From contig JAMNXU010000033.1 of assembly GCA_023623175.1 (NCBI GenBank), positions 1 to 64,000 of the forward strand: a stretch of DNA of 64,000 nt, read 5' to 3'. Positions 4,597-14,879 of this stretch are shown piece after piece (the stretch's first letter is position 1; every line of letters starts with the position of its first letter). The position numbers and the translations under genes were made by a program. This stretch comes from Bacillota bacterium (GTDB taxonomy: Bacteria; Bacillota; Clostridia; Acetivibrionales; JAMNXU01). The notes beneath the pieces are model-generated. The model made no database searches. It was not told the origin of the DNA and saw nothing but the letters and a program-made list of their open reading frames with translations.

Positions 4597-5343
4597 CTAT
4601 TTCAACAAGCGGCTGATCATACTTTCCCTGGCCATGTTTTCAAAAGTATCATCAAGCCTCGGCAAACCTGCAAAGTCGCCGTATTTTTGTTTCAGCGCCC
4701 TGCTCAGCAATAGATCGGCAAGTGCGGGATTTTTGGGCAGAAGGCTTCCGTGGGCATAACTGCAGAAAACGTTTTTGTAAACTGCGCCTTCAAGGCCGTC
4801 TTCACCGTTATTGCCCCCGCCTGTCAATATCCTGCCGAGGGGCTTTACATCGGGTCCCAGGTATGTTCTGCCCTGATGGTTTTCAAATCCCACAATTTTG
4901 CTGTCATAGCCTTCCGCAGCAAGAATGTCGCATTCAAACAGAATGTTGCCTATTATCCTTGTTTCCCCTTCCACGGTCCACAGGTCCAGAGCGCCCAGGA
5001 ATTCTATTTCTTCACCTTCCCGTGTCCTGTAGTATCTGCCCAGCATCTGGAATCCCCCGCAGATGCACAGGAAAACCTTGTTGCCTTCAATTGCGCTTTT
5101 TATTTCAGAGGCTTTTTCACTCAGCAGATCGGGACTAATGATTTTCTGTTCATAGGTTTGACCGCCGCCCAGAACCGTGATGTCATATTTTTCTGAATCA
5201 TAGGCATCCCCTATGGTGACTGCATCAATGCTGACCTTTATATTCCGCCATTCGGCGCGTTTTTTCAGCGCGATGACATTGCCGCGGTCCCCGTACAGAT
5301 TGAGAAGGTCAGGGTATAAATGGCAAATGTTTAATTCATACAT
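4597..5343 (-). CDS. gatD: Lipid II isoglutaminyl synthase, glutaminase subunit GatD
   Basis: This 248-residue class I (triad) glutamine amidotransferase is of the CobB/CobQ-like type. Cys95 in CICGGFQMLG is the nucleophile and His198 in SYAHGSLLP is the conserved partner. LYGDRGNVIAL near residue 16 and the LGGGQTYEQ stretch are typical of GatD. The enzyme frees ammonia from glutamine and feeds it to MurT, which amidates the alpha-carboxyl of D-Glu in lipid II to D-isoglutamine at the cytoplasmic membrane face. Start is ATG with GGAGGT upstream. It lies 15 bases downstream of murT, the order usual in Gram-positives. Confidence 0.93.
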   Translation of the reverse strand: MYELNICHLYPDLLNLYGDRGNVIALKKRAEWRNIKVSIDAVTIGDAYDSEKYDITVLGGGQTYEQKIISPDLLSEKASEIKSAIEGNKVFLCICGGFQMLGRYYRTREGEEIEFLGALDLWTVEGETRIIGNILFECDILAAEGYDSKIVGFENHQGRTYLGPDVKPLGRILTGGGNNGEDGLEGAVYKNVFCSYAHGSLLPKNPALADLLLSRALKQKYGDFAGLPRLDDTFENMARESMISRLLK

Positions 5344-5358
5344 GGGTTTACCTCCGCA

Positions 5359-6903
5359 TTATTTCCAAAAATCCCTCAGCCTGAACTTATTTTTCAGATG
5401 TTTCCTGATATCCAGCATCGCGGTATATGTAGGAAGCAGGTAAAGGGTATGGCCTTCCGGCGTGTCGGCCAGCGCTTTGTCAATCAATCGCCCGTAATTT
5501 CTTTCGATCTCAATTTTATCCGTGTCCATGCCGCAATACTTCAGCCGCACGGCCATGTCGCCGGCCCGGGTGCCTGACACGTATACGCTGTCCATTAGGG
5601 GAAAAATCGGTTGCATTTTTTCAAAGTCCACGTCCCAGAGCCATGAAACATCGGTGCCGTCGGCAATCCTGTCGTTTATTATAAAGGCTGCAACGAAATT
5701 CTTTTTTTCGGTGAGCAGATAATTAATTACCTGGTTGAAGCCGGCGGGGTTTTTTATCAGGATTACTTTAACGGTTTTGCCGCCGGCATCGATGGTTTCC
5801 ATCCTTCCAAAGCCGCTTTCGACTTTTGAAAGGGAAGCGAGCGCAGTGTCCATGTCGGTATCGAGCGCCCGGCTGCAGCCAACGGCTGCGAGCGCATTGT
5901 ATATGTTGTAAAGCCCGGGAAGGCTGATTTTTACCGAATAAATTTCATTTTTGTTTTGTGCATGAATACCGCCTTTTTCTGAGGACAATCCGTTGCATTC
6001 CGTATTCATCAGGCCGCTTTTTTCAGCAGACAAGACGTTTTCTGCGGAAATTTCGTCGCACGGCGAAAATTGCTCAGTATTATCAGTATCAGATTTTATA
6101 CAGGAAGGTTTCGCGAGTCTCAGCCTGATTGCGGAACCAGTGGCCGACAGTTCTTCCACTTCCGTGCACGCCACATTTGATTCGGGTCTTGCGTAGCCAC
6201 AGGTCGGACAGCGGAACCAGCCAAGGTGGCCGTATATGTAACTGTCGTATTCATAGCGTGTTTTGCAGTAAATGCAGAAATTTGCGTCGCTGCTTCCGCT
6301 GTCGGCAACGCCTTTACAGGCTCCGGGATCAAAACCGTAATAAATGACTTCATTGCCTGCGTTTTTTCCAAGGGAAGCACAAAGAGAATCGTCGGCGTTC
6401 AAAACGAGCTTTGCGTTCGGGGATTTGCGAATGCCCGATGCCACGTTTTCAACTGTCGTGTAAAGCTCGCCGTAACGATCGAGCTGGTCCCTGAAAAAGT
6501 TGGTGACGACAAGAATATCAGGAGAAATATGGTTGGTTACCGCGTTAAAAGCCGCTTCATCGATTTCGAGCAGCGCGGTGGATACTCCGGAATCGCCCCT
6601 GTAATTTACGTTTTCAATAAAAGTGGTGACAATGCCGCTTACAAGGTTGGCTCCCGATTTGTTGGTTATATAGCCTATATTATTATCCTTAAGAATCTGG
6701 CCTATCATTTTCGTCGTGGTAGTTTTGCCGTTGGTGCCCGTTACCATTATTATCCTGAAATTTTTGGCCGTTTCACGGAGAACGTTCGGATAAATTTTCA
6801 GCGCGAGTTTGCCGGGAAGGCTCGTTCCTCCGCGCCTGAAAAGCCTGCAGGCAATAATGGCAAATTTGGCGGTTAGTATTGATAAAATGTACCTTATTTT
6901 CAT
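5359..6903 (-). CDS. murT: Lipid II isoglutaminyl synthase, Mur-ligase subunit MurT
   Basis: About 514 residues. A Mur-ligase P-loop (MVTGTNGKTTTTK) and the Mur central-domain TNFFRDQLDRYGE stretch are clear. A four-cysteine zinc ribbon (CIYC...CPTC) is the MurT-specific insertion. A low-complexity acidic, Ser-rich segment of about 50 residues follows the ribbon (coded near 5945-6105), making the protein longer than typical MurT of about 450 residues. MurT uses ATP to activate the D-Glu carboxylate of lipid II and GatD supplies ammonia. The ATG at 6903 is chosen because AAAGGAGC lies just before it and homologues start MKIRYIL. An upstream in-frame ATG at 7026 would place the promoter -10 inside the gene. 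Confidence 0.92.
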   Translation of the reverse strand: MKIRYILSILTAKFAIIACRLFRRGGTSLPGKLALKIYPNVLRETAKNFRIIMVTGTNGKTTTTKMIGQILKDNNIGYITNKSGANLVSGIVTTFIENVNYRGDSGVSTALLEIDEAAFNAVTNHISPDILVVTNFFRDQLDRYGELYTTVENVASGIRKSPNAKLVLNADDSLCASLGKNAGNEVIYYGFDPGACKGVADSGSSDANFCIYCKTRYEYDSYIYGHLGWFRCPTCGYARPESNVACTEVEELSATGSAIRLRLAKPSCIKSDTDNTEQFSPCDEISAENVLSAEKSGLMNTECNGLSSEKGGIHAQNKNEIYSVKISLPGLYNIYNALAAVGCSRALDTDMDTALASLSKVESGFGRMETIDAGGKTVKVILIKNPAGFNQVINYLLTEKKNFVAAFIINDRIADGTDVSWLWDVDFEKMQPIFPLMDSVYVSGTRAGDMAVRLKYCGMDTDKIEIERNYGRLIDKALADTPEGHTLYLLPTYTAMLDIRKHLKNKFRLRDFWK

Positions 6904-6975
6904 ACGTGCTCCTTTTAAATCAAAAAAACTCCTTAAAATGTTTTGCCCGAAAAACCGGTGCATGTCCATAAAAGG

Positions 6976-6984
6976 ATTATAACA
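6976..6984 (-). promoter_or_regulatory. Extended -10 promoter of murT-gatD
   Basis: On the minus strand TGTTATAAT (a TGn plus perfect TATAAT) lies about 73 bases before the murT ATG. No good -35 stands 17 bases upstream, which is tolerated by extended -10 promoters. Its position supports the shorter murT start. Confidence 0.55.
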
Positions 6985-7172
6985 CAGTCTTAGATCGTCT
7001 GTATTAATTTTTTCGTATTTGGACATTTCCCAAAAGGGTAGTTATATAGTTGTTGAATGGTTGTTGCCGTGATGTTAAAATAGGCTTGAAGCGGAATTTT
7101 TACTTATAATAGGCAAATAACGATTAATAGGCTGCTGGCGGGCAAATAACCTTTTATGAGCCAATAAACCAA

Positions 7173-7190
7173 CACACCCGGGAGGGTGTG
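7173..7190. repeat. Perfect short palindrome at the murA break
   Basis: CACACCC (7173-7179) and GGGTGTG (7184-7190) form a perfect 7-base stem around GGGA. The right arm belongs to murA (Gly-Gly-Cys codons), while the left arm belongs almost wholly to the non-homologous upstream DNA. Homology to MurA begins at 7178, inside this palindrome. Confidence 0.8.
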
Positions 7191-8101
7191 AAATAGGTCC
7201 AAGACCCATTGATTTGCACCTGAAAGCCCTCAGGAGCATGGGCGCCAGGATCCGGGACGCTCAGCACGGTTTTATTTTTTGCGAAACGGATAAGCTCCAG
7301 GGAACGGACATCATGCTGGATTACCCGAGTGTGGGAGCTACTGAGAATATTATGCTTGCAGCGGTTTTTTCCGAAGGAGTCACCCAGATCAGGAACGCTG
7401 CAAAGGAGCCTGAAATTGTTGATTTGCAGAGTTTCCTCAACGCCCTTGGAGTCAATGTTGTCGGGGCCGGCACCCATCTGATAAGGATTGAGGGATGTAA
7501 AAAGAAGTTGCGCGATGTGGAGCATAAAATCATACCGGATCGCATAGTTGCAGGTACATACATGGTGGCGGCGGCCATGACCGGAGGCGAAGTCCTGCTC
7601 AGGAATGTCATACCCGAACATCTCGTTTCGATAATGTATAATTTGAGGGAAGCAGGCTGCCAGATACGCACCAACGGGGATTGGGTCCATATACAGGGAC
7701 CCGAGAGACTCAATTCAATAGACATGGTCAGAACGCTTCCTTATCCAGGTTTTCCGACGGATATGCAGCCCCAGACGGTAGCAATGCTTTCCATTGCCAG
7801 GGGAACAAGCATAGTTGTGGAAACGGTATTTGAAAACCGGTACAAGCATGTGGAAGAAATGTTGCGCATGGGAGCGAATATAAAACTGGAAGGCAGGATA
7901 GCCATTATCAAGGGTGTAAATAAGCTCGCCGGAGCGGAGATTTACGCGAGGGACTTGAGAGGAGGAGCTGCCCTGGTACTGGCAGGTCTTGCGGCGGAAG
8001 GAACAACCATTGTGCACGGTGTAAAGCATATTGACCGTGGATACGAGAAAATTGAAGACAGGCTGAGGCATTTGGGTGCCAAAATATCTAGAGTCGATTG
8101 A
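7178..8101 (+). pseudogene. murA: UDP-GlcNAc enolpyruvyl transferase MurA, 5'-truncated
   Basis: Reading from 7178 the frame gives PGGCEIGPRPIDLH, the MurA loop carrying the catalytic cysteine (E. coli Cys115), and continues co-linearly to the normal MurA C-terminus (DIDRGYEKIEDRLRHLGA type). The first roughly 113 residues are absent. Upstream the same frame is non-homologous for six codons and then meets TGA at 7157-7159, with no ATG or ribosome site. The only in-frame start, TTG at 7214, would lack the catalytic cysteine. As drawn this copy cannot make active MurA, so a second murA elsewhere, or an assembly or rearrangement error here, is implied. It occupies the usual place before divIB in the division cluster and its stop overlaps the upstream divIB start option. 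Confidence 0.85.
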
Positions 8102-8990
8102 AGGGGTAGGATTGAAACAGCAGGAAGTAACCATTACGCCGAAAAAATACCTTGAGAGGAAAAGAAGGCGGGAAAAGAGACTAAGGAGAATACTGTGGTG
8201 GTTCAAAACAATAATGCTGGTTTCTTTAACGATAACGACGCTGGTATTGCTGGCGCTTTCGCCGCTCTTCAATATAACCGCGATAGAAGTGCACGGGAAC
8301 CGGCATTATACCTCTGAAGAAATTGTGCAGGCCACCGGGATTGCCATCGGAAGCAACGGGTTCAAGAATATTGGGAGCAACTGGAAAAATATTTTCGCTC
8401 TTCGGTTTGGAGAATCGGAAGAATATTTGCTCCACTCCAAACCGTATATTGAGCACGTGACTGTCAGGTTCATACTTCCCGGAACCGTCAGGGTTACGCT
8501 TACGGAAAGGAAGCCCCTGGCCGTTGTTAACTACATGGGCAATGAGGTAATTGTTGATAAAAACGGATATGCCCTCGATTATTTTGTGGACGATGCCGAG
8601 GTCGAAAGCATAAAGCTCCCGGCGATTCTGGGCGTAGGGATAAAGTCGCTCAGACTTGGACAGGTCCTTGAATTTGAGACCCAAAACGGCAGCGAGGGTT
8701 TTTATGCCGCTGTCAGGCTTCTTTTATCCATAAAGGAATCCGATGAATCCACCGAGACTTATAAGTTGTACAAATATGTGGATTCGGTGGACGCGGGCGA
8801 TCCTAAAAACATCATCCTCGGTTTTGACGGAAGATTCAGGGTTAAATTCGGGGATTTGAAGGAACTTGACCATAATTTGAATTTCTTCAGGTATATTTAC
8901 TACTCCAATCTGAAGTATTCCAATGACAGGGGAACACTCGACATGACGGCGCTGAAGCCCGTGCTTATAGAGGAAACTGCTGTTGATTAA
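8076..8990 (+). CDS. divIB: Cell division protein DivIB/FtsQ
   Basis: A 304-residue single-pass membrane protein. A Lys/Arg-rich cytoplasmic N-terminus is followed by one transmembrane segment (about residues 46-66), then a POTRA domain beginning FNITAIEVHGNRHYTSEEIV, and a beta domain with the GTVRVTLTERKPLAVV strand typical of FtsQ. It joins the FtsL/FtsB complex that activates septal wall synthesis. The ATG at 8076 overlaps murA by 26 bases. An alternative TTG at 8112 has GAAGGGG seven bases upstream and would begin at residue 13. Which one is used cannot be settled here. It sits between murA and sbp, the normal Gram-positive order. Confidence 0.88.
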   Translation: MPKYLESIEGVGLKQQEVTITPKKYLERKRRREKRLRRILWWFKTIMLVSLTITTLVLLALSPLFNITAIEVHGNRHYTSEEIVQATGIAIGSNGFKNIGSNWKNIFALRFGESEEYLLHSKPYIEHVTVRFILPGTVRVTLTERKPLAVVNYMGNEVIVDKNGYALDYFVDDAEVESIKLPAILGVGIKSLRLGQVLEFETQNGSEGFYAAVRLLLSIKESDESTETYKLYKYVDSVDAGDPKNIILGFDGRFRVKFGDLKELDHNLNFFRYIYYSNLKYSNDRGTLDMTALKPVLIEETAVD

Positions 8991-13976: not shown

Positions 13977-14879
13977 GTGTATATGGAGATATATCCCGAC
14001 ATAATCTTTCTTGAAAATCTTGTGATTAATTACCTGATTTTGCAGGTTACGGCCAAGTTTGCCAGGAGGAATGCAAGCAACCTGCGCATTTTTACCGGGG
14101 CGCTGATTGGTGCGATTTATGTTGTGGCACTGCTCCTGCTTCCGGATTCATCGGTTTATTATACGATTGAAGCAAAAATTCTTCTTTCTTTGGTAATAGT
14201 CGCCGTTACTTTTTCTCCCGGGAAAATCAGCAGTTTTATTAAGGTTTTAGCGGTGTTTTACCTGTCAACGTTTGTATTTGCCGGCGCAGCGTTTGCCTTC
14301 ATATACTTCAATCCGGCGGGCGGATTTGTGAAGAACGGGGTCATATACATGTTCCGCGACTCAAAATGGACTACGCTCGTTCTTTCGCTTTTAACCGCCG
14401 TTATAGTCGTCCGGGTATTCTGGGAAGTGATACAGTTCAAATTCGGAAAGGAAAAACTCATTTTCCCCGTGCTGATAACCTTTGACAAAAATTCCATCAG
14501 GCTTTCAGCCCTGGTCGACACGGGCAATTCGCTCAAGGATCCGCTTACGAACATGCCGGTCGTCGTCGTGGAGTTTGCAGCGATAAAGAACATACTGCCC
14601 GAAGAAATCAAGAAGATATTTGACCATAACAAGGAAGACGACCTTAATACAGTGACCGACGCGGTGACAAACTCCGGGTGGCATTCGCGGTTCAGGCTTA
14701 TTCCCTTCACTTCCCTCGGGAAGGAAAATGGAATGCTCCTGGGTTTCAAGCCGGATTACATTGAAATCGGCGAGGAGGATGAAAAGAAGGACGTCAGCGA
14801 CGTTATTGTCGGCATATACAACAGGGCGCTTTCACGAAATGAAAAATACAGGGCCCTGCTGAGCCCTGAACTGATTTAG
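13977..14879 (+). CDS. spoIIGA: Sigma-E processing peptidase SpoIIGA
   Basis: A 300-residue protein with five hydrophobic segments in the first 150 residues and a C-terminal aspartic-protease domain. The catalytic Asp181 lies in ALVDTGNSLKDP. It cleaves pro-sigma-E in the mother cell after a signal from the forespore. The start is GTG at 13977, or ATG two codons later. It directly precedes sigE (37 bases), the order conserved in endospore formers. Expression is probably from the Spo0A-type promoter at 13868-13900. Confidence 0.93.
   Translation: MYMEIYPDIIFLENLVINYLILQVTAKFARRNASNLRIFTGALIGAIYVVALLLLPDSSVYYTIEAKILLSLVIVAVTFSPGKISSFIKVLAVFYLSTFVFAGAAFAFIYFNPAGGFVKNGVIYMFRDSKWTTLVLSLLTAVIVVRVFWEVIQFKFGKEKLIFPVLITFDKNSIRLSALVDTGNSLKDPLTNMPVVVVEFAAIKNILPEEIKKIFDHNKEDDLNTVTDAVTNSGWHSRFRLIPFTSLGKENGMLLGFKPDYIEIGEEDEKKDVSDVIVGIYNRALSRNEKYRALLSPELI

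Follow-up and report, generated by a model that had tools for sequence, protein, structure and literature searches.

What is a murA gene without a beginning doing in the division and cell wall cluster of a bacterium, and why is it cut off exactly at a palindrome? This question is raised by the window, that is, the whole stretch of 64,000 nucleotides analysed here. Direct reading of the window gives an in-frame TGA at 7157-7159, followed by GCC AAT AAA CCA ACA CAC and, from 7178, by CCG GGA GGG TGT GAA ATA GGT CCA, the first four codons of which (7178-7189) spell P-G-G-C. The stretch from the TGA to P-G-G-C contains no start codon. The frame of 307 aa that extends from there (7178-8101, plus strand) corresponds to positions 113-416 of the MurA model, above the curated cut-off of the profile search; it is a murA 3' half without a usable 5' start codon. 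The palindrome, CACACCC-GGGA-GGGTGTG, occupies 7173-7190 (direct reading), with its centre between 7181 and 7182. Directly downstream of the 3' half come divIB (8076-8990, plus strand, ORF as listed, overlapping the end of murA), sbp, ftsA and ftsZ; on the other side are the divergent murT (5359-7026, minus strand) and its partner gatD (4597-5343, minus strand). A murA cut at this palindrome, with MurA similarity from 7178, a TGA at 7157 and a position in the proper slot ahead of divIB, had been reported in a preliminary description of this DNA, and direct reading and profile search bear it out in all these points. Farther along the window, an ORF at 13977-14879 (plus strand) resembles spoIIGA by eye, in agreement with a spore-forming host.

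The source genome (2.85 Mb in 39 contigs, 99.99% complete) was searched with the murA model, and the missing murA 5' part was found at C35:45370-45717 (model positions 2-118, profile search), well inside a contig of 93.6 kb. The two halves are, in consequence, on different contigs. The 5' half reads ...ISYPGGC and then departs from MurA into a short tail. The 13-mer CCGGGAGGGTGTG, located at 7178-7190 (plus strand) in the window and at C35:45369-45381(-), has exactly two exact matches in the source genome, one at each junction. It had been anticipated that, if the truncation were real, the cell would depend on another murA; in line with this, the same search returned three full-length paralogues, on contigs C1, C16 and C24, together with one distant match on C14, below the cut-off. 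On C35 itself (L005:1860-2280), murG is absent between the murA 5' half and an ftsW-like gene, the place where most relatives carry it.

The comparison set consisted of 60 relatives and provided 52 scorable genomes of the order. The murA of this cluster is split in at least 44 of the 52, complete genomes included: both halves were found in 44 genomes, counting the source genome, and only one half in four further assemblies. In most of the 60 relatives, the reading frame of the orthologous 3' part opens only at the same codons and has some 310-350 aa, and a 5' part ending at the same place is present in nearly all genomes having a 3' half. The break is identical to the codon in 12 families of the order, single-contig genomes among them. 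A continuous murA frame (421-438 aa) occurs in eight genomes (G001, G007, G011, G015, G021, G023, G030 and G037), in which the gene order is ftsW-murG-murA-divIB-sbp-ftsA-ftsZ. In split genomes, a break within murA divides the same cluster; the 3' half is then commonly next to murT-gatD (murT adjoins it in many of them, as in the window), and several families have sigW-rsiW next to the 5' half. The genomes compared include those of Acetivibrio mesophilus, Anaerobacterium chartisolvens and Ruminiclostridium cellobioparum subsp. termitidis, as well as G045 and G027, which we take to be C. thermocellum ATCC 27405 and C. cellulolyticum H10, respectively; G046 corresponds to R. papyrosolvens DSM 2782 (PMC10701907). 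A split murA was not found in the literature, in a search that covered few subscription papers and preprints.

Regarding the geometry of the halves, in family f4 (G027, G032, G046, G003, G017, G036, G043, G040, G051) and in G039 they have the same orientation, with the 5' half upstream and some 10-12 kb between them. The same orientation is found with larger gaps in G004 (23 kb), G006 (49 kb), G042 (91 kb), G028 (92 kb) and G035 (254 kb). Inverted halves, which would bring the inverted flanking sites of an inverton, occur only in G002 (528 kb) and G045 (606 kb), nearly all one-contig pairs being in the same orientation. In C. cellulolyticum, the intervening 10 kb contain sigW, rsiW, polA, coaE, a lytic transglycosylase gene (slt), a small ORF, a DAHP synthase gene (aroF), gatD and murT, names assigned by reading the sequences; judged by this content, the interval is chromosome and not phage. 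No recombinase gene lies in those 10 kb. In other genomes, up to 254 kb of ordinary chromosome separate the halves, and so they do not enclose an exogenous element.

Both junctions share, within every genome compared, the GG of the Gly codon in CCN-GG-N; the base before GG differs between junctions in 8 of 37 genomes, and the base after it in 3 of 37. The palindrome is centred exactly on this GG, in line with the 2-bp crossover made by large serine recombinases. The outer arms were compared as the non-coding DNA to the left of the 3' half against the reverse complement of that to the right of the 5' half. Conservation of their consensus, ATGTGCCAATAAAnTAACACAnCC, spans about -25 to -1 and ends there: within a genome, the mean identity of the arms is 0.65, compared with 0.30 farther out and a maximum of 0.32 among 500 shuffles. 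Putting the outer arms together gives a palindrome of about 52 bp (attP type); the inner halves together give murA itself (attB type). By sequence comparison, then, the locus has the site of about 50 bp expected of a large serine recombinase, with the non-palindromic GG at the crossover and arms of 25 bp, and the junctions look like attL and attR. In the window, the attR-like site extends over 7156-7207 (plus strand), with a 25-bp left arm of attP type (7156-7180), the central GG (7181-7182), the palindrome as its core and a right arm within murA, whose limit at 7207 is set by symmetry only. The left arm mirrors the right one since it forms one half of a conserved recombinase site; the other half is at the end of the murA 5' part.

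The coding sequences point in the same direction. PGGC is read as sequenced in only 16 of 39 5' halves (the others have PGEC, PGDC, PGVC, PGEW and so on), and it appears in 37 of 37 after in silico joining at GG. As for the 3' halves, an in-frame start ahead of PGGC is missing in 33 of 46, and a start together with a ribosome site was found there in none of the 46. The gene is interrupted in frame, with a short core shared by both junctions, and joining would give a full-length predicted MurA with its catalytic Cys loop. Among relatives, the median dN/dS of the 3' half is 0.05 and that of the 5' half 0.08; by this measure, both halves are under purifying selection. A joined murA or attP was not found in any assembly or viral contig searched.

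Only one large serine recombinase, LSR-A (C20:65531-67165), is encoded in the source genome. It has the Resolvase, Recombinase and Zn-ribbon domains and the catalytic Ser in Y-x-R-x-S; this residue, S26, is invariant in 18 sequences. Its nearest solved structure is SPbeta SprA/YokA, and it matches XisF weakly, far below the cut-off. Of the 44 genomes with both halves, 43 have an orthologue (47-60% identical, in some cases broken into two or more pieces), whereas all eight intact genomes lack one (Fisher p=1.2e-8, with genomes treated as independent and kinship ignored). The contrast holds within family f5, in which G037 is intact and lacks LSR-A, whereas the others are split and have it. Furthermore, LSR-A and MurA distances are correlated (r=0.75; 0 of 2000 permutations). 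LSR-A is an orphan gene, located beside rpoN and a phosphoglycerate mutase gene in many genomes; in C. cellulolyticum it is encoded elsewhere in the chromosome and not between the halves. Two fragmented assemblies depart from this pattern: (i) G009, with the 5' half only and no LSR-A; and (ii) G029, with both halves and no LSR-A orthologue. About 1 kb beyond the murA 5' half, G029 carries a different serine recombinase (C503, L132:1813-3435), some 40% identical to LSR-A, and the right arm of its 5' half departs from the consensus. It is possibly a newer element in the same site, and G029 may be an exception in having the recombinase inside the intervening element.

The three tyrosine recombinases of the source genome were set aside as the agent, since site anatomy and co-occurrence point to a serine enzyme. 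Pelotomaculum and Peptococcaceae have LSR cousins (39-43% identical) together with an intact murA, hence the system does not extend there. The cousins of Peptococcaceae BRH_c8a and Pelotomaculum (L165, L166) stand among sporulation-like genes (yabG-like and SPOCS-like, by eye) and may rejoin another gene.

A link with sporulation is suggested by gene neighbourhood and by a putative promoter. In about 10 genomes, LSR-A lies just upstream of spoIVA on the same strand, and SpoIVA is encoded in 44 of the 44 genomes with both halves. The members of the order that lack SpoIVA are G037 and the 1.2-Mb genome G013, neither of which is split. Seven SpoIVA-positive genomes have an intact murA and no LSR-A; the split is therefore not required for sporulation as such. 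Just upstream of LSR-A, most genomes contain a tiny, poorly conserved ORF of 32-54 codons that, from its position and size, we would guess to be a candidate directionality factor. A scan for the sigma-E consensus was negative directly upstream of LSR-A and weakly positive upstream of the tiny ORF, where alignment then revealed a conserved block with constant spacing, GGACAAwTTTTAwT...GCATATATATT. GGAC-N24-CATA occurs in 18 of 36 genomes, versus 0.006 expected in each; GAATATA variants are found in further f4 and f5 genomes, and the source genome has GGACAAACCGTGCGGCATATATTT, with a shorter spacing. CATA is presumably a -10 element of sigma-E/sigma-K type, and GGACA presumably a SpoIIID box. 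Sigma-E and sigma-K promoters have similar -10 elements (PMC3789822), and in B. subtilis the skin recombinase gene spoIVCA is controlled by sigma-E and SpoIIID (PMC5025042, PMC517825). From the spoIVA linkage and this block, rejoining would probably take place in the sporulating mother cell.

LSR-A is itself split in some genomes: it is in pieces in family f4 (G017, G027, G032, G036, G043, G046, G049) and in G028 and G018 (f5). Wherever the break is readable, it falls at the W-F/Y-N-E-R-Y codons; its core, taken from G028, is AACGAnCGATAnGC. The LSR-A pieces of C. cellulolyticum (G027:C1:2507000-2526500) are 14 kb apart, and the DNA between them carries a second serine recombinase, LSR-B. LSR-B is 53-72% identical among four genomes with a split LSR-A, and its element looks like a classical recombinase-bearing element within a recombinase gene. 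We give about even odds to a two-tier cascade in sporulation: LSR-B would restore LSR-A, which would act next on murA, and the mother cell would thereby lose chromosome-sized segments by excision or, in the case of C. thermocellum, invert some 600 kb.

The reading proposed here, with a probability of roughly 0.85, is that murA is reassembled by programmed DNA recombination, with LSR-A acting in trans on attL and attR, probably in the mother cell. The murA of the dcw cluster is stored as two distant halves, each ending in half a recombination site: attL would comprise the murA 5' half and the attP right arm (C35), and attR the attP left arm and the murA 3' half (window). The chromosomal LSR-A, probably assisted by the tiny protein encoded just upstream of it, would recombine them at the GG of the Gly codon beside the catalytic Cys, the products being an intact murA and an attP-type palindrome on the other product. 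With halves in the same orientation, the intervening DNA would leave as a circle; with inverted halves, the segment would flip. In this way the terminally differentiating mother cell would obtain MurA for spore peptidoglycan, and growing cells would use the other murA genes.

The preliminary description had put forward a fold-back or template switch at the palindrome, in vivo or during amplification or assembly, to account for the mirrored left arm. A palindrome at the breakpoint does invite such an artefact, and one with 7-bp arms could, on its own, arise by chance within 64 kb; chance does not account for a breakpoint that is shared by at least 44 species and has arms conserved over 25 bp. 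Comparison with relatives shows an order-wide split at the same P-G-G-C codons instead of a local event: it recurs in at least 44 independently assembled genomes, several of them single-contig, with the 5' half intact elsewhere (in the source genome, on another contig), so that an artefact or a fold-back is refuted, its probability being practically nil. Just as improbable is an old accidental rearrangement that left decaying gene remnants; the other murA genes could make the split one dispensable, but dN/dS values of 0.05-0.08 in both halves and sites conserved across the order contradict decay. Purifying selection also agrees with a frozen split enzyme, in which the halves are made separately and assemble into MurA without the DNA ever being rejoined. 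The catalytic loop of MurA is flexible, and the break falls in that loop. Nevertheless, such an enzyme is very unlikely in view of the missing starts of the 3' halves, the 23 of 39 5' halves that do not read PGGC, the conservation of non-coding arms 25 bp out and the strict tie to a recombinase. Taken together, purifying selection, the regained PGGC, the missing starts and the site anatomy argue for DNA joining and against a split enzyme or a pseudogene.

A closer rival keeps the recombinase-dependent rejoining and unties it from sporulation, as a phase switch in some growing cells or a response to stress. The inverted halves of two genomes would permit a reversible flip, and sporulation timing is suggested by promoter resemblance and gene neighbourhood. 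Even so, we consider this rival unlikely: LSR-A stands beside spoIVA, the GGACA/CATA block precedes it, the split occurs only where SpoIVA is present, and joining of halves in the same orientation would remove 10-254 kb (in C. cellulolyticum, with polA and coaE), a loss that a growing lineage could hardly survive.

Concerning the origin of the split, the backbone of the MurA tree is not resolved, and intact sequences appear in several places. One origin with several reversions fits the shared neighbours, the alternative being independent origins. Reversion by site-specific joining would be scarless; a murT-sigW adjacency, looked for as a trace of the original site, is absent from the intact genomes. 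In G013 (C126, L245), which lacks SpoIVA and in which a dcw murA was not found, murT-gatD and divIB are immediate neighbours, the layout expected if a split ancestor had lost its 3' half.

Known gene rearrangements in sporulation are due to mobile elements, mostly patchy among strains. If the proposed reading is true, murA is an old, order-wide and apparently domesticated case, with the recombinase outside, ordinary chromosome in between and a split gene that belongs to the central cluster for cell division and cell wall synthesis. It predicts that much-studied bacteria such as Clostridium thermocellum carry a murA unable to make the enzyme until its DNA is recombined, and the persistence of such splits becomes a directly testable question. 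In addition, it would provide some 40 recombinase/site pairs of natural origin in which the GG crossover is defined and, as candidate directionality factor, a protein of only about 35-50 residues.

The murA split likely works, by analogy, like the skin system in sigK (B. subtilis SpoIVCA; C. difficile CD1231 and CD1234), which also has a two-part gene and a large serine recombinase (PMC5025042, PMC517825). Mother-cell joining and a small directionality factor belong to skin and are only candidate features of the murA system. On the other hand, skin has its recombinase inside a prophage-like element and a sigma factor as target, whereas the murA system has a peptidoglycan enzyme as target, chromosomal DNA between the halves and its recombinase gene at another place in the chromosome. 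Other genes related to sporulation are likewise interrupted: spsM by SPbeta (SprA/SprB), spoVFB by vfbin, gerE by gin and yabG by yin. In these cases, too, the att cores are short and the recombinases are of the serine type (PMC4191935, PMC5595907, PMC10747680). The inserts are prophages or islands of exogenous origin that bring their own recombinases and have a patchy distribution among strains; the murA split, in contrast, is order-wide and inherited with the host. In the excision of nif/fdxN elements in heterocysts (XisF), as in the proposal for murA, a serine recombinase rejoins genes in a terminally differentiated cell, although the genes and the cell type are different. The recombinases of the nif/fdxN elements are encoded within them. 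Since neither a recombinase inside the interval nor an exogenous element was found, the murA split is not a skin-type gene-intervening element as defined, and it is best called a domesticated, trans-acting variant.
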